In this document: piece by piece, positions 42,682 to 47,578 of the stretch
Numbering within the stretch: position 1 is the stretch's first letter
Layout of the letters: every line of letters begins with the position of its first letter
Virus record (IMG/VR): IMGVR_UViG_3300049489_000902
Coordinates: 1-62,272 of that record
Strand: one strand, 5' to 3'
Origin: a virus
DNA length: 62,272 nt
Made by a program: the position numbers and the translations under genes
Notes under the pieces: generated by a model
Seen by the model: only the letters and a program-made list of their open reading frames with translations
Told to the model about the DNA's origin: nothing
The model's database searches: none

Positions 42682-42855
42682 CTAAATAATTACTCTTTTA
42701 ACCATTATTTCTTGATCCCAAAATTCATGAAATGACCAACTATATATTGGATGCTCATATTTTCTACGACCAATTCTTTGATAAGGAAGAGATCTTCTAA
42801 CTGGCACTATAGGATCTCTTTTTACACAGATATCTATTGTTTTATCATAAGTCAT
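42682..42855 (-). CDS. Micro-ORF 18 (last unit, long tail)
   Basis: 57 aa. N-terminus MTYDKTIDIC may match the MCP around residues 99-107 (SYERDIDV), a short and tentative match. The tag is YSWSFHE but is not followed by a stop: the protein continues as FWDQEIMVKRVII. It overlaps the previous unit by 4 bases (ATGA) and has no array ORF after it. Confidence 0.6.
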   Translation of the reverse strand: MTYDKTIDICVKRDPIVPVRRSLPYQRIGRRKYEHPIYSWSFHEFWDQEIMVKRVII

Positions 42856-42974
42856 TCAAACTTCCAGTTGTATATCTCATATCTAGAATATTTCCTCCAT
42901 TGTTTGACAGCACTTAAGCGAATAGTAGGATTTGAAAATAATTCAAACATAGGAAAAACATCAGGTTTATTCAT
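42852..42974 (-). CDS. Micro-ORF 17, MCP segment about 127-150
   Basis: 40 aa. FPMFELFSNPTIRLSAVK aligns with MCP residues IPTFEIYANPKVRIAEVK. The tag is IYNWKFE with the H/Y position missing. 8-base overlap with unit 16. Confidence 0.65.
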   Translation of the reverse strand: MNKPDVFPMFELFSNPTIRLSAVKQWRKYSRYEIYNWKFE

Positions 42975-43107
42975 AAAATGTCCAGTCATATATTTTATGA
43001 TATCCATCAATTATAGAAAATCTTCTAGTTCTTACATCAGAAATCCTAATACTAGGACATGAAGAAATTTCAAATATAGGAACTGTTACTCTGGTGCCTT
43101 TGATCAT
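42967..43107 (-). CDS. Micro-ORF 16, MCP segment about 126-156
   Basis: 46 aa. RVTVPIFEIS aligns with RVTIPTFEIY of the MCP, and VRTRRFSIID aligns with VKKRRFNVID; 16 of 29 positions are identical over the whole match. The tag is IYDWTFYE. A 1-base gap separates it from unit 15. Confidence 0.7.
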   Translation of the reverse strand: MIKGTRVTVPIFEISSCPSIRISDVRTRRFSIIDGYHKIYDWTFYE

Positions 43108-43108
43108 T

Positions 43109-43252
43109 TTAAATTATACTTATGGTTAAATTGTCCCAAAATTCATGAAATTCAAAATCATATATTTGATACTTTCTATATGAAACGAATCCTTTCATAG
43201 CGTATCTTGTGAATAATTGCATAGTCTGAGGGCTAAATGTTATATCATCCAT
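43109..43252 (-). CDS. Micro-ORF 15 (long tail)
   Basis: 47 aa. SPQTMQLFTRYAMKGFV may correspond to MCP residues 243-259 (DPVTMREVLQTGLYAHI), tentative. The tag is IYDFEFHE and, as in unit 18, the protein reads on (FWDNLTISII), giving a longer C-terminus. Confidence 0.6.
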   Translation of the reverse strand: MDDITFSPQTMQLFTRYAMKGFVSYRKYQIYDFEFHEFWDNLTISII

Positions 43253-43346
43253 AAAACTTCCAGTCATATATTTTATAAAATATGTAGCTGTAAATAACAT
43301 TAGGGCTCCAATCATAATATATTATACCGCTTTCTCCTCTAATCAT
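43245..43346 (-). CDS. Micro-ORF 14
   Basis: 33 aa, no clear MCP match. The tag is IYDWKFYG, with a second partial YYDWS inside the body at residues 10-13. 8-base overlaps with units 13 and 15. Confidence 0.55.
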   Translation of the reverse strand: MIRGESGIIYYDWSPNVIYSYIFYKIYDWKFYG

Positions 43347-43521
43347 GAAATTTCCAATCATATATTTCATATATAGGATTTGTATTAAATACACTCCTAG
43401 CAATTCCTCTATAATCTAAATTACGTCTAATAGGAGCTGCCATTGCCATAGCAAGCTTAGCTTTACCTTCTTTAGTATGTAAATTACTTAATAACTTGCT
43501 AATAATATCATCTTTATTCAT
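43339..43521 (-). CDS. Micro-ORF 13, MCP segment about 51-90
   Basis: 60 aa, the longest single unit. KEGKAKLAMAMAAPIRRNLD aligns with QDGKLALAQAMANPIRKNLD, continuing into DYRGIAR; about 20 of 31 positions are identical. The tag is IYDWKFHD and the stop is TAG. Confidence 0.75.
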   Translation of the reverse strand: MNKDDIISKLLSNLHTKEGKAKLAMAMAAPIRRNLDYRGIARSVFNTNPIYEIYDWKFHD

Positions 43522-43624
43522 AAAATCTCCAATCAAATATTTTATAATTACAATCAATTATAGTCATTACAGGAAATATTACAAATTCTCTTATATCAGC
43601 ATTAATAATATAGTCTTTATTCAT
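43514..43624 (-). CDS. Micro-ORF 12
   Basis: 36 aa. The tail PVMTIIDCNYKIFDW resembles unit 16 just before its tag (RFSIIDGYHKIYDW), so it may be a decayed copy of the same MCP segment. The tag is IFDWRFYE. 8-base overlap on both sides. Confidence 0.55.
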   Translation of the reverse strand: MNKDYIINADIREFVIFPVMTIIDCNYKIFDWRFYE

Positions 43625-43751
43625 AAAATCGCCAATCGAATAAATAATGATAATAATCAAGAGTGGTTCGTAAAGGGCTTGTCATTAATTTAGCAAGCCT
43701 CTTTCTGCCTTTTTTAGTTTTTAATAATTTGTTTACTTTACCTTTATTCAT
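43617..43751 (-). CDS. Micro-ORF 11, MCP segment about 52-80
   Basis: 44 aa. KKGRKRLAKLMTSPLRTTLD aligns with the MCP QDGKLALAQAMANPIRKNLD, the same segment as unit 13 but more diverged and more basic. The tag is LFDWRFYE. Confidence 0.65.
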   Translation of the reverse strand: MNKGKVNKLLKTKKGRKRLAKLMTSPLRTTLDYYHYLFDWRFYE

Positions 43752-43854
43752 AGAAACACCAGTCATATAAAATATAGCCTATACTTATCGTATATTTAAT
43801 ATAATTTATAGGATAAGTAATTTCATTTATTGTTATTAATGCATTTGTTACCAT
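43744..43854 (-). CDS. Micro-ORF 10
   Basis: 36 aa. Very hydrophobic body (ALITINEITYPINYIKYTIS) with no firm MCP match. The tag is LYDWCFYE. It starts 1 base after the stop of unit 9 instead of overlapping. Confidence 0.55.
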   Translation of the reverse strand: MVTNALITINEITYPINYIKYTISIGYILYDWCFYE

Positions 43855-43855
43855 A

Positions 43856-44035
43856 TTATTCGCTAAATTCCCAATCATAGATAGAATATCCAAACATATT
43901 ATTCATTATATTAATAATATACGCATCTTCAGCGTCCATTATTTCTTGCTTAGCTTTATTTAGTACTTCACTGTATATAGTGTAATCATGACTGTAATCT
44001 AATTCTGAAAAATTAGGATAAATTATCTTATTCAT
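43856..44035 (-). CDS. Micro-ORF 9, MCP segment about 155-176
   Basis: 59 aa. NKAKQEIMDAEDAYIINIMN aligns with QKARQEIMAQEDANVFAAID of the MCP. The same MCP segment is also in unit 6. The tag is IYDWEFSE. Confidence 0.65.
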   Translation of the reverse strand: MNKIIYPNFSELDYSHDYTIYSEVLNKAKQEIMDAEDAYIINIMNNMFGYSIYDWEFSE

Positions 44036-44129
44036 AAAACCTAAAATCGTACAAACTCATACAAGAATAACAAAAATCTATGAAGCTTTCAATATCAGAT
44101 TCTAATATCGTAAATATTGGTTCATTCAT
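44028..44129 (-). CDS. Micro-ORF 8
   Basis: 33 aa. EPIFTI may be a remnant of the MCP PTFEI segment, not certain. The tag is LYDFRFYE, with Phe in place of Trp. 8-base overlaps both sides. Confidence 0.55.
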   Translation of the reverse strand: MNEPIFTILESDIESFIDFCYSCMSLYDFRFYE

Positions 44130-44271
44130 AAAACTTCCAGTCATATATTTGATTAGAACCTGCCCAAGATATTATATCCGTATAATCATTCACATTCATG
44201 AATATTCTAGGACATTGTAACGTATGGCTTTCTATTTCTTTTTGTATAGATCTAAGTTGTTTTTTATTCAT
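44122..44271 (-). CDS. Micro-ORF 7, MCP segment about 211-231
   Basis: 49 aa. CPRIFMNVNDYTDIISWAGS aligns with TDKFFMNIVEFTDMLKWGSG of the MCP. This segment is found only once in the array. The tag is IYDWKFYE. Confidence 0.65.
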   Translation of the reverse strand: MNKKQLRSIQKEIESHTLQCPRIFMNVNDYTDIISWAGSNQIYDWKFYE

Positions 44272-44425
44272 GAAATTTCCAATCATATATTCCAGCAATT
44301 AGATAATTAAGCATAGCAAATACTGCATTATCTTCTTGTGCCATTATTTCTTGACGCTCTTTCCATTCTTTAATATCTAATATAGGATATGGTTTACGTT
44401 GAAAATTTTTCATATAATCATTCAT
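44264..44425 (-). CDS. Micro-ORF 6, MCP segment about 153-178
   Basis: 53 aa. RQEIMAQEDNAVFAM is nearly identical to MCP RQEIMAQEDANVFAA, preceded by an unrelated basic N-terminus. The tag is IYDWKFHE. Confidence 0.7.
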   Translation of the reverse strand: MNDYMKNFQRKPYPILDIKEWKERQEIMAQEDNAVFAMLNYLIAGIYDWKFHE

Positions 44426-44540
44426 AGAAACTCCAGTCGTATATTTCATTAATGCCAAGCTCATCATTATAAAACATATGTACTAATTTATTAATTATTG
44501 GATCTTTGTTATGTATTAAATACAAATCTTCTTCATCCAT
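44418..44540 (-). CDS. Micro-ORF 5
   Basis: 40 aa. N-terminus MDEEDLYLIHN resembles that of unit 4 (MTDEEIYLMYQN). No firm MCP match. The tag is IYDWSFYE. Unit 4 reads into it in the same frame. Confidence 0.55.
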   Translation of the reverse strand: MDEEDLYLIHNKDPIINKLVHMFYNDELGINEIYDWSFYE

Positions 44541-44648
44541 AGAATTTCCAATCGTATACAGTAATATAGTTATAAAAAGCAAATTTAAAAATGATTGAGT
44601 AGAAATTAAATTATTTTGATACATTAAATAAATTTCTTCATCAGTCAT
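44418..44648 (-). CDS. Micro-ORF 4, out of frame with its tag
   Basis: The ORF from the ATG at 44648 passes its own tag sequence in another frame and reads on through unit 5 to 44418 (76 aa). In the -1 frame the site reads YDWKFYG followed by TGA at 44533, so the motif is present in DNA but not in this frame. It is either a frameshift mutation or a fused unit. Confidence 0.5.
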   Translation of the reverse strand: MTDEEIYLMYQNNLISTQSFLNLLFITILLYTIGNSMDEEDLYLIHNKDPIINKLVHMFYNDELGINEIYDWSFYE

Positions 44649-44772
44649 AAAATTTCCAATCATTAATATAATTAACTATGTCCACATAATAAAAATGTGT
44701 AAATAAAGTTTTAATCTTAGTATCAGCTGCGTATCTGTAATCATACATAGAATGTATATCAATATTATTCAT
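44641..44772 (-). CDS. Micro-ORF 3
   Basis: 43 aa, MNNIDIHSMYDYRYAADTKI start. A weak ADT match to MCP residues 190-192 only. The tag is INDWKFYD. 8-base overlaps both sides. Confidence 0.55.
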   Translation of the reverse strand: MNNIDIHSMYDYRYAADTKIKTLFTHFYYVDIVNYINDWKFYD

Positions 44773-44848
44773 AAAATCTCCAAATATAAATATTATTTGG
44801 TAATTCAAGATATTCTGGAAGATAAGTAGGTTGACAAAATTCAATCAT
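44765..44848 (-). CDS. Micro-ORF 2
   Basis: 27 aa, the shortest unit: MIEFCQPTYLPEYLELPNN, then tag IYIWRFYE. No MCP match. It shows that the tag is kept even when the body is minimal. Confidence 0.55.
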   Translation of the reverse strand: MIEFCQPTYLPEYLELPNNIYIWRFYE

Positions 44849-45041
44849 TAAATTTCCAATCATATATTTCATGTATACTAAATTTACCAATACCTCTAGC
44901 ATTTACTATTCCTATGCCAATCGTCTCATAACATGTCCAACCAATTAGCTTATTCTTTGGTTCATCTGCATCAAGAACAGTTATTTCTTGTTTTACTGGA
45001 ATTTTACCAACAAATTCAATATCACCACTTTTATAAATCAT
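44841..45041 (-). CDS. Micro-ORF 1, MCP segment about 281-324
   Basis: 66 aa, the best MCP match: VLDADEPKNKLIGW aligns with VLPADEPKLLSIGW and IGIGIVNARG with IGIGIVNPRG; 27 of 43 positions are identical. The tag is IYDWKFND. It continues the MCP segment of the untagged remnant upstream. Confidence 0.75.
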   Translation of the reverse strand: MIYKSGDIEFVGKIPVKQEITVLDADEPKNKLIGWTCYETIGIGIVNARGIGKFSIHEIYDWKFND

Positions 45042-45061: not shown

Positions 45062-45160
45062 CTATAAATATCTCATTTTACCCTCAGCTTTGCCGTTGAC
45101 TATTCCATCCATGCTAAGTATCCTTACTGCATCAGCGCTCAAAATGTGCCCATTCTTATT
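45062..45160 (-). pseudogene. Untagged MCP-like fragment, segment about 254-285
   Basis: The minus-strand frame reads NKNGHILSADAVRILSMDGI and then VNGKAEGKMRYL before a TAG. HIL..AD and GIVNGKAEG correspond to HIWGAD and GTVYGSAAG of the MCP. There is no tag; the following bases only loosely resemble it. An internal ATG preceded by AAGGA could start a 16-residue peptide. Its upstream end runs into the start of the plus-strand HNH gene, which probably truncated it. Confidence 0.5.
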
Positions 45161-45175
45161 AAGGAAAAATATATT

Positions 45176-45889
45176 ATGGCTTCTCTTGATCTTACAAACA
45201 AAATTTTTGGTAAACTTACTGCACTACACACTGTCCCGAATAAACCTGGCGACCGCCATATTAAATGGAAGTGCAAATGTGAATGCGGTAATTTTCACCA
45301 TGTTACAACTAATCAACTTACTTCAGGAAGATCAACTCACTGCGGTTGCGTTAAACCTGAATCAAAAAGAAAAATTGACATAACTAATAGAAAATTTGGC
45401 AAATTAACCGCCATTGAACCAACTTACCATAATGAAAAACTAAAGTGGAAATGTATTTGTGAATGTGGCAAAGAATGCATTGTTATTACAGATAAATTAA
45501 TGTCTGGTCACACTAAATCTTGTGGTTGTAATAAGATAACTGTACATTACGATAATCATTATAGAAGAAATGCTTCTAATGGAAGTGGAGTTCTAACTGA
45601 ACTTAAATCTTATTTTCAACAAAGATATTCTGATGGAAATCTAACCTTTGAACAATTTGAAGAATTATCAAAAAATAATTGCCATTATTGTGGTGCTGGT
45701 CCATCAAATACAATTAAATTAAAGTATAAAGATTATACGGCATTTATTAAATATAATGGTTTAGATAGAAAAGACAATAATAAAAAGCACGATTCAGACA
45801 ATGTAGTGACTTGTTGTAAGAACTGTAATTATTCAAAAAGAAATAGTTCATATGCAGAATTTTCGGAAAGGATTGGTAAAGGATTATGA
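45176..45889 (+). CDS. HNH endonuclease with two Cys-rich DNA-binding repeats
   Basis: 237 residues from the ATG at 45176, chosen because AAGGAA is 10 bases upstream. Two N-terminal repeats of the type FGKLTxL...WKCxCECG...LxSGxTxxCGC (residues 8-58 and 72-118) are followed by an HNH nuclease: CHYCG (169-173), NGLDRKDN (194-201) and TCCKNCNYSKRN. Such genes are mobile homing endonucleases. It is antisense to all neighbours and overlaps the second HNH gene by 4 bases, so the two form a unit between the MCP gene and the array. Confidence 0.8.
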   Translation: MASLDLTNKIFGKLTALHTVPNKPGDRHIKWKCKCECGNFHHVTTNQLTSGRSTHCGCVKPESKRKIDITNRKFGKLTAIEPTYHNEKLKWKCICECGKECIVITDKLMSGHTKSCGCNKITVHYDNHYRRNASNGSGVLTELKSYFQQRYSDGNLTFEQFEELSKNNCHYCGAGPSNTIKLKYKDYTAFIKYNGLDRKDNNKKHDSDNVVTCCKNCNYSKRNSSYAEFSERIGKGL

Positions 45890-46497
45890 GTTTAGTAAAT
45901 AAAAAATTTGGAAGATTAACTGTTTTAAGAGAGGTTAGAAAAGGAAAAACTCTTAGAAAAATATACTGGGATTGCTTATGTGATTGCGGTAAAGAAACTA
46001 ATGTCTATGGCGTTTATTTAGTTAATGGAGATACTAAATCTTGTGGGTGTTTAAAAACTGAAAAGAAACCAGGTTTAAAGAAACCAAAGTCAAGAGAACA
46101 TTATCAAAGAGGTTCTGCTAAAAAAGCATATTCAACCTCATATACAAATGAAGGAGATACCATTTCATTTGAAGATTTTTATAGGTTAGCACAAATGGAT
46201 TGTTATTATTGTGGACAAAAACCAATTAACGCAATTAATGCGTATAATGATAAGAGATACCTTCCAGAAGCAAAAGAAAATGGAAAATTTATCTATAATG
46301 GACTAGATAGAGTTGATAATAGTCTGCCTCACACATTAGAAAATTGTGTTACTTGTTGTAAACATTGTAATTATGCAAAAAGAGATATGTCTCAGCAAAA
46401 ATTTTTAGAATATCGCCAACAAAGATTTAATCATTTCCAAAAAAGTAAAGAATTTTTTGAAGGAGAAATTAAATTAAAAGAAATTTTAAACCGTTAA
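45886..46497 (+). CDS. HNH endonuclease, second of a pair
   Basis: 203 residues with one N-terminal repeat (FGRLTVLREV, WDCLCDCG, SCGC) and an HNH core: DCYYCGQK, YNGLDRVDN and CVTCCKHCNYAKRDM. It is clearly paralogous to the gene before it, with an ATGA overlap. Both catalytic motifs look intact. It ends before a strong bidirectional terminator shared with the convergent MCP gene. Confidence 0.8.
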   Translation: MSLVNKKFGRLTVLREVRKGKTLRKIYWDCLCDCGKETNVYGVYLVNGDTKSCGCLKTEKKPGLKKPKSREHYQRGSAKKAYSTSYTNEGDTISFEDFYRLAQMDCYYCGQKPINAINAYNDKRYLPEAKENGKFIYNGLDRVDNSLPHTLENCVTCCKHCNYAKRDMSQQKFLEYRQQRFNHFQKSKEFFEGEIKLKEILNR

Positions 46498-46519: not shown

Positions 46520-46553
46520 AAAAACGCTCAGGATTTTAGCCCTGAGCGTTTTT
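46520..46553. terminator. Bidirectional terminator between HNH pair and MCP
   Basis: Arms AAAAACGCTCAGG and CCTGAGCGTTTTT, with a loop of 8 bases. Oligo-T lies on both sides, so it stops transcription of the MCP gene (minus) and the HNH genes (plus). Transcription of the micro-ORF array past this point would need read-through or a separate promoter. Confidence 0.85.
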
Positions 46554-46573: not shown

Positions 46574-47578
46574 TTATCCGACTGAAACTGATTTACGACC
46601 AGCAGCGCAACCACGAGGATTGACGATACCAATTCCGATAATCTCAGAAACAACCCAACCAATTGAAAGCAATTTGGGTTCGTCAGCAGGAAGAACTTCA
46701 ATGTCTTGGACCACAGGCATAACACCTAGGAACTCGCCAGCCGCTGAACCGTATACGGTACCTTGTGGAACAATCTTACTTACAAGAACATCAGCACCCC
46801 AGATATGGGCATAAAGACCAGTTTGGAGAACTTCGCGCATGGTAACGGGATCGAGATCTCCACCACCTACGCCTTGTCCACCACCTGAACCCCACTTTAA
46901 CATATCGGTAAATTCAACAATGTTCATGAAGAATTTATCAGTTACGAGGTCCCAACGATCAACTTGGGCTTTAAGATCAACTAAGTTCCTCTTTAATAGA
47001 CCGGTGTCAGCTAAGTCGATAAGAGTATTTTCAACTGAAGCAGCGGAATCAATGGCAGCGAAAACGTTTGCGTCTTCTTGAGCCATGATTTCTTGACGTG
47101 CTTTTTGAACGGCACGGTCAATAACGTTAAATCTGCGTTTTTTGACTTCGGCAATACGAACCTTGGGATTCGCGTAAATTTCAAAGGTAGGAATCGTAAC
47201 GCGGTCGCCGAATACACGGCTTTCTGGACCTGAACCATTTGAAGAAATTACAACGGCAGCAACATCAATATCTCTTTCGTATGAGATCTGTTGACCCTGT
47301 TGAACATTCTCAACAACTAAGGCACGACGAGCAATTCCATGGTAATCTAAATTCTTACGAATTGGATTCGCCATAGCTTGAGCAAGAGCTAATTTACCGT
47401 CTTGTGTTAAGAGGGCACGGTTAACCATGTCATCTTTTTCGGCATCACTGGCTTCACGAGTAAGACCAGCGTTTGAAGGCATATTATCATCAAGAATTGA
47501 AGCATATTTCGCGATAGTGGCGAAAGCTTCTTTGACAGAAGAGGCGTTAAGTTCGCCTTGAGCATTAAACATAGACAT
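46574..47578 (-). CDS. Major capsid protein
   Basis: 334 residues. Position after protease/scaffold and a candidate decoration gene, strong ribosome-binding site (AGGAG about 9 bases upstream) and GC-richer codons than the rest of the window fit a very abundant protein. The segments VTIPTFEIYANPKVRIAEV, QKARQEIMAQEDANVFAAID and DEPKLLSIGWVVSEIIGIG follow the pattern of HK97-fold capsid proteins. The N-terminal 50 or so residues are helical (VKEAFATIAKYASILD) and could be a cleaved propeptide. It is flanked by terminators on both sides, so it is probably transcribed alone. Confidence 0.85.
   Translation of the reverse strand: MSMFNAQGELNASSVKEAFATIAKYASILDDNMPSNAGLTREASDAEKDDMVNRALLTQDGKLALAQAMANPIRKNLDYHGIARRALVVENVQQGQQISYERDIDVAAVVISSNGSGPESRVFGDRVTIPTFEIYANPKVRIAEVKKRRFNVIDRAVQKARQEIMAQEDANVFAAIDSAASVENTLIDLADTGLLKRNLVDLKAQVDRWDLVTDKFFMNIVEFTDMLKWGSGGGQGVGGGDLDPVTMREVLQTGLYAHIWGADVLVSKIVPQGTVYGSAAGEFLGVMPVVQDIEVLPADEPKLLSIGWVVSEIIGIGIVNPRGCAAGRKSVSVG

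Follow-up and report, generated by a model that had tools for sequence, protein, structure and literature searches.

A tandem array of tagged micro-open reading frames, many apparently derived from the major capsid gene, in a metagenomic phage contig

We have analyzed an array of very short open reading frames (ORFs) in a virus record from IMG/VR of 62,272 bp, the whole of which is referred to here as the window. The array, which is known from this single metagenomic contig, occupies the minus strand from 45041 to 42682 and consists of 18 copies of one repeated element, making 17 consecutive ORFs. Most of the predicted peptides close with a variant of the same octapeptide (the tail, or tag). 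Judged from the sequence, nine or ten of the bodies preceding the tails originate from the gene for the major capsid protein (MCP), selection appears to keep the frames of the units open and to conserve the amino acids of the tag, and ORFs containing pieces of the capsid gene occur in other giant phages as well. As a tentative explanation we favour a translationally coupled operon of about 17 tagged, capsid-derived microproteins that would act as interfering peptides in capsid assembly.

The repeated element (TAYGAYTGGNNNTTYYATGAAT; consensus TAYGAYTGGnnnTTYYATGAAT(R)A, also written TAYGAYTGGNNNTTYYATGAATRA) was found 18 times on the minus strand, from 42723 to 44864, when up to three mismatches were allowed, and nowhere else in the window. 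By chance a mean of 0.65 matches is expected, with at most 3 in any of 100 dinucleotide shuffles. The array and the coordinates given for it in a preliminary description of this DNA are confirmed. One of the matches (43877-43898) is an off-frame neighbour, while the copy that ends U17 (IYNWKFE, at about 42880) escapes the scan because one codon is missing; the true copy number is still 18. In one frame the element encodes the octapeptide [IL][YF]DWxF[YH][ED] followed immediately by a stop codon, and the start codon (ATG) of the following ORF lies within it in the +1 frame. A single short sequence is therefore used in two frames, the tail codons also providing a putative GG-type ribosome-binding site (TGG) and the start of the following unit. 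The GG of this TGG lies about 9-10 nt upstream of the ATG in nearly all copies, with Shine-Dalgarno matches of modest length. Fourteen of the 16 tail copies checked have an ATG no more than 8 nt from the stop in the frame of the next unit, or else a start in that frame close by. Tail-to-tail intervals, counted from the embedded ATG, are multiples of three in 14 of 16 cases (P about 1e-5), and 13 of the 16 are also free of stops. The array was not detected by Tandem Repeats Finder because its units are too divergent.

Several copies depart from this plan. The preliminary description had counted 18 ORFs, 17 of them ending in the octapeptide and the fourth with its motif one frame off. The frameshift is seen, the interval between U4 and U5 not being a multiple of three, but the ORF simply continues into U5 and still closes with a tail, which reduces the number of ORFs to 17. 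The octapeptide ending is valid for most units; U17, however, has a seven-residue form, and U15 and U18 read past the octapeptide into a common HEFWD(N/Q) extension. Start signals vary as well. The tail of U8 has lost the TGG and has AGG, and in the copy ending U9 the ATG has been replaced by GCG, with an in-frame ATG nine bases downstream. The copy ending U15 has lost TGG and any GG; U16 begins at a start of its own instead of at the embedded ATG. U1, the first unit, has its own ribosome-binding site, AGGA.

The apparent source of the bodies mentioned in the preliminary description is taken to be the MCP. We assessed this with a profile hidden Markov model (HMM) built from 62 distinct MCPs, using 200 shuffles of each unit as a control. 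An MCP origin was verified for nine units and is probable for a tenth, U18, whereas eight bodies (U2, U3, U4, U5, U8, U10, U12, U14 and, less certainly, U15; U4 and U5 share one ORF) have no detectable MCP similarity. The profile alone finds U1, U13, U16, U7, U6 and U17, with E values from 4e-15 to 0.008, and U9 and U11 score above all 200 of their shuffles, as does U18 at a low score. The order of the units is scrambled with respect to the MCP, every match keeps the MCP reading frame, and three MCP segments are present twice (U11/U13, U16/U17 and U6/U9). Each unit covers 20-53 MCP residues, and none is a full-length HK97-fold homologue. Placed on a model of the MCP, the pieces correspond to one or two structural elements each, namely N-arm helices, E-loop strands, the spine helix or P-domain strands. 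Protein identity between units and MCP is 28-62%, and the only match found at the DNA level is 32 bp long at 88%. The window has 41 genes that encode 150 amino acids or more, and of these only the MCP gave such fragment matches outside genes.

Selection was measured between paralogous units of one contig, which share ancestry. The earlier observation that the units stay open was borne out: there are no stops in 462 codons of intact intervals, compared with 52 of 449 and 75 of 449 in the other two frames. In simulations of neutral drift from the MCP, on average about two of the nine MCP-derived units were open at the observed divergence, and all nine were open in none of 2000 runs. The codon-usage score per codon is +0.04 in the unit frame versus -0.53 and -0.38 in the others; for ordinary window genes the corresponding values are +0.37 versus -0.75 and -0.67, so that the coding signature of the units is frame-specific but weaker than that of normal genes. 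At the tail codons for Y, D and F, 14 synonymous and 8 non-synonymous changes were found over 18 copies (dN/dS about 0.07); the associated binomial P of 6e-9 overstates the significance, since the copies share ancestry. The variable x codon of the tail changes freely. Pooled dN/dS for the duplicated bodies is 0.77, on 69 codons only. The conservative variation reported earlier therefore applies to the tail and not to the bodies. Homogenisation by gene conversion was ruled out as the cause of tail conservation, because divergence at silent sites is as great in the tail as in the bodies. A decaying selfish repeat, one of the possible explanations listed earlier, was rejected in its plain neutral form in view of the open frames and the tail dN/dS, although the bodies alone do approach neutrality. 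The tail thus appears to be constrained as amino acids and, at its Y/H and E codons, as a start codon too; for the bodies the constraint is mostly on the open frame only. The absence of stops and the in-frame intervals suggest that translation of the units is selected. Of the proposal that the array is translated and its peptides are under selection, the first part and the selection on the tail are supported by the phasing of the intervals, the open frames, the tail dN/dS and the codon usage; conservation of the whole tagged peptide is not supported.

Table 1. Units of the array and neighbouring features, with window coordinates. Shuffle values give the number of shuffles out of 200 that reached the score of the unit.
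Feature	Coordinates	Strand	Description	Evidence
MCP	46574..47578	-	334 amino acids (aa), HK97 fold, source family of bodies	PHROG 2522, E 5e-69
Two HNH/endonuclease VII-like genes	45146-45889, 45886-46497	+	between MCP and array	PHROG 374, PHROG 1035
Hairpin	46520-46553		strong, bidirectional, terminator-like; between MCP end and second HNH gene end	
U1	44841..45041	-	66 aa; body MCP 275-327 (P-domain strands); tail IYDWKFND	MCP HMM E 4e-15; 0/200 shuffles
U2	44765..44848	-	27 aa; tail IYIWRFYE	ORF from ATG inside preceding tail; no MCP match
U3	44641..44772	-	43 aa; tail INDWKFYD	no MCP match
U4+U5	44418..44648	-	fused, 76 aa; final tail IYDWSFYE; tail copy at 44556 (VYDWKFYG) one frame off	interval length, ORF list
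U6	44264..44425	-	53 aa; body MCP 146-179 (spine helix); tail IYDWKFHE	HMM E 3e-4; 0/200 shuffles; 32-bp DNA match to MCP at 88%
U7	44122..44271	-	49 aa; body MCP 196-234; tail IYDWKFYE	HMM E 3e-5; 0/200 shuffles
U8	44028..44129	-	33 aa; tail LYDFRFYE	no MCP match
U9	43856..44035	-	59 aa; body MCP 153-179; tail IYDWEFSE	0/200 shuffles; weak alone (HMM E 0.26)
U10	43744..43854	-	36 aa; tail LYDWCFYE; embedded ATG is GCG, in-frame ATG 9 nt later	tail-interval analysis
U11	43617..43751	-	44 aa; body MCP 54-82 (N-arm helices); tail LFDWRFYE	0/200 shuffles
U12	43514..43624	-	36 aa; tail IFDWRFYE	no MCP match
U13	43339..43521	-	60 aa; body MCP 49-94 (N-arm and first E-loop strand); tail IYDWKFHD	HMM E 2e-10; 0/200 shuffles
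U14	43245..43346	-	33 aa; tail IYDWKFYG	no MCP match
U15	43109..43252	-	47 aa; tail IYDFEFHE then FWDNLTISII	no TGG/GG; embedded ATG unused by next unit; no MCP match (less certain)
U16	42967..43107	-	46 aa; own ATG after U15 stop; body MCP 124-156 (E-loop return strand to spine); tail IYDWTFYE	HMM E 3e-7
U17	42852..42974	-	40 aa; body MCP 130-151; tail IYNWKFE	HMM E 0.008; 0/200 shuffles
U18	42682..42855	-	57 aa; body probably MCP ~70-88; tail IYSWSFHE then FWDQEIMVKRVII	0/200 shuffles at low score

The minus strand of the window carries a cluster of head and tail genes. The window MCP shares 47% identity with gp27 of Bacillus phage G and also matches the solved gp27 capsid structure 6wkk; a model made with AlphaFold 2 (pLDDT 73) has a predicted HK97 fold, and its best Foldseek matches are HK97. 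The array had been described as adjoining the capsid gene. Its position agrees with this, but two HNH genes on the opposite strand (45146-46497) and a hairpin intervene. Given this terminator-like hairpin, the array is probably transcribed from a separate promoter, located upstream of 45041. A sigma-70 promoter inside the array was considered and rejected, promoter-like sites being no commoner there than in shuffled sequence. No group I intron or remnant was recognized between 42000 and 48500, where no intron family of Rfam 15 matched at E<=1.

The closest relatives of the window are large phage contigs, with MCP identities of 71-77%. No other phage record has the element, although near-identical records of the window were possibly hidden from the searches. 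Exact and degenerate scans of IMG/VR for the octapeptide gave no match, and no related phage has the array. The element was absent from the whole records of 33 relatives, in a scan that gave 14 matches in the window, and no MCP-piece ORF lay near the MCP in 80 plus 158 related loci. U1 as sole query had no matches, and U13 retrieved MCP genes only. Among the open-access papers searched, none offered a precedent in phages for arrays of micro-ORFs or for fragments of the capsid gene. The run of small genes behind the MCP of phage G was rejected as a similar array, since these genes are not MCP pieces; three of them, gp32, gp34 and gp35 (L182), have a common C-terminal (K/R)xx(Y/W)xKENDRYLxxxLxK.

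ORFs containing MCP pieces were found at loci away from the MCP in 14 of 37 related records of at least 200 kb, which are contigs of uncertain completeness. The 14 represent about eleven independent lineages, because G024/G026, G036/G038 and G051/G052 are near-duplicates. One locus is a tRNA cluster that has a conserved gene of 311 aa downstream of it, with pieces in G033 (L099, 163 and 67 aa), G020 (L100, 64, 60 and 214 aa) and G031 (L101), and with degenerate pieces in G024 and G026. The pieces of L099, L100 and L101 have a common motif, M(K/R)HP(h)(h)I..xGKL, both N-terminal and internal. It also occurs in a wider form, (M/F/Y)KH(P/D/R)hhI(D/N/S)xxGKL, and in some cases the start codon is surrounded by a DNA stem-loop. 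Another locus lies between two glycosyltransferase genes (G002, G014 and G031); in G014 the MCP piece, 24 C-terminal residues, precedes the second, glycosyltransferase-like protein as an in-frame fusion at its N-terminus (L103:4678-5469). In another MCP lineage (G035, G036 and G038) pieces share their ORF with a DnaJ-type zinc motif (L272, L271) or follow an N-terminus that is Tat-like (L269). Combinations of an MCP piece with DnaJ-type or other zinc-ribbon-like cysteine motifs were seen three times, apparently independently (L272:2392-2688 and L271:2703-3143 in G035; L398:2312-2956 in G048), and N-termini resembling a Tat signal or membrane anchor precede the piece in L269:2376-2648 (G038) and L187:5431-5724 (Tunturi_5 gp172) (RRTFIGSLFAALGA; RRQFFRFPLVALAFALA). 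A 214-aa ORF of G048 resembles the MCP with internal deletions, and further pieces are present in G051 and G052. The cultured phage Tunturi_5 is included among these cases: its gp172 (97 aa) has a piece identical to its own MCP at 23 of 29 positions.

Nearly all of these pieces outside the window are in the sense frame and inside intact ORFs. In a control with core genes common to two phages (71 in G020, 71 in G031 and 11 in G035), several partial secondary copies were seen for the MCP and for at most one other gene. Orthologous pieces of G033 and G031 share 41% identity, compared with 95% for the MCPs of the two phages, and the L099a (G033) and L101b (G031) pieces are closer to the MCP of another lineage (LR745208) than to that of their own genome. 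Such pieces therefore either evolve far faster than the MCP or came from elsewhere, yet they stay open. A foreign origin was rejected for the units of the window, which show no such preference. The ORFs of the relatives (L099-L104, L268, L269, L271, L272, L398, L399 and Tunturi_5 gp172) resemble the array in being in-frame MCP pieces kept as small ORFs away from the MCP, some with a repeated short motif. They differ in that no more than about three are neighbours, without the octapeptide tail or an array of overlapping stops and starts, and most carry other accessory parts.

According to the explanation that we tentatively favour, bodies would have been captured, at least for the most part, from the MCP gene, keeping its frame but not its order, and then multiplied through tandem duplication. 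The aromatic tag would close each unit at its C-terminus, with its codons doubling as the ribosome-binding site and start of the next, and the units would be translated during infection as a chain of termination and re-initiation. Most speculatively, the capsid-like stretches and the tag may engage the capsid protein or assembly machinery of a rival phage, of a satellite or of the phage itself. Poisoning or tuning of capsid assembly, one of the options raised earlier, would be the most plausible of those left; we infer this step from the capsid-piece bodies and from the recurrence of the same origin, with unrelated accessory parts, in other giant phages. Precedents exist for parts of such a scheme. 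Ccm of SaPIbov5 is a capsid homologue used against capsid assembly of the helper (PMC8569155); it is encoded by a separate gene, is 24% identical to the phage capsid protein and alters the assembly of another element, and its likeness to the array lies in the use of capsid-derived separate genes. Ccm is, however, a full capsid homologue in a satellite, whereas the array belongs to a giant phage, comprises 17 tagged ORFs the size of fragments and is known from sequence alone. Tab, a prophage-encoded blocker of virion assembly of another phage (PMC10884400), is a precedent for assembly blocking but works on tail assembly via the tape measure protein, and unlike the array it has no series of capsid pieces. 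In the Gol/Lit and CapRel systems short capsid stretches are active ligands in infected cells (PMC9712102); these ligands belong to the complete capsid protein, which the host senses, while the array units are separate phage genes.

Several considerations weigh against an action on capsid assembly. Eight bodies are no longer capsid-like and the duplicated ones are close to neutral, so the capsid part is weakly constrained at best, which is not what a specific capsid-binding peptide would predict; this near-neutral evolution is the main counter-argument and points to the tag as the part that is active. No tie between tag and capsid is apparent. A common function with the ORFs of the relatives is not assured, since the accessory parts vary from one phage to another (zinc fingers, the KHP..GKL motif, N-termini that are possibly Tat-like), and selection can be read from paralogues only, because no relative has the array. 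The tag might be functional by itself, the array supplying many aromatic short linear motifs to a host or phage target, with bodies that are mere carriers made from capsid scraps. The contrast between tail and body dN/dS (0.07 versus 0.77), the eight of 18 bodies that are unrecognisable and the closing tail of the single frameshifted unit all agree with this. We nevertheless consider it somewhat unlikely, as it leaves unexplained why pieces of the MCP, and not of any sequence, recur as tagless small ORFs in other giant phages.

A slightly lower probability is assigned to retained debris. Pieces of the capsid gene would then have been captured repeatedly, for example when homing endonucleases cut the capsid locus, with a functionless product whose frames are kept because closing them would be harmful, for example through polarity. 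HNH genes adjoin the array, the unit order is scrambled, the bodies are near neutral and the MCP genes of some relatives are interrupted by introns with endonuclease-like ORFs: those of G055, G059 and G061 (L403, L401 and L402) contain one or two inserts of about 1 kb, near residues 97 and 167, whose endonuclease-like ORFs have a motif of the GLLLGDGH type. Together, these inserts and the flanking HNH genes point to the capsid gene as a frequent homing target in the family, and breaks there could, as a suggestion only, supply pieces. Debris does not account for a tail conserved at the amino-acid level, for open frames far above the neutral expectation, or for pieces elsewhere that are nearly all in the sense frame of intact ORFs. 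The fragments could also be decoys that occupy host sensors of new capsid protein without triggering them. The capsid is a known trigger, for CapRel and, through the Gol peptide of T4 gp23, for Lit (PMC9712102), and fast-evolving capsid-derived peptides fit an arms race; the fragments, however, come from several parts of the MCP and not from one recognised segment, and we regard decoys as improbable. Least credible by far is a recombination reservoir for capsid variation, like silent pilin cassettes, which had been among the earlier options. Several partial copies do lie beside the expressed gene, but a protein identity of 28-62% and a single short DNA match fall well below the high identity of such cassettes, and the MCP itself shows strong conservation across the family.

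More broadly, giant phages may keep a previously unrecognised class of genes made from MCP pieces that interferes with capsid assembly of competitors or satellites, the window being an extreme tandem form in which the tail doubles as a start signal. We think this generalization rather doubtful at present, and less probable than an interfering role for the array itself. Should the peptides be produced and affect capsids, they would constitute a peptide-level weapon or regulator derived from the phage's own shell gene, paralleling capsid-derived restriction factors, and short synthetic peptides could be used to test this. Even without a capsid function, the array would be an unusual case of dual coding, with a conserved octapeptide and the next start signal on the same bases. 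It also draws attention to an apparently overlooked pattern: pieces of the capsid gene, more than those of other core genes, survive as small ORFs in many giant phages, one of them cultured.

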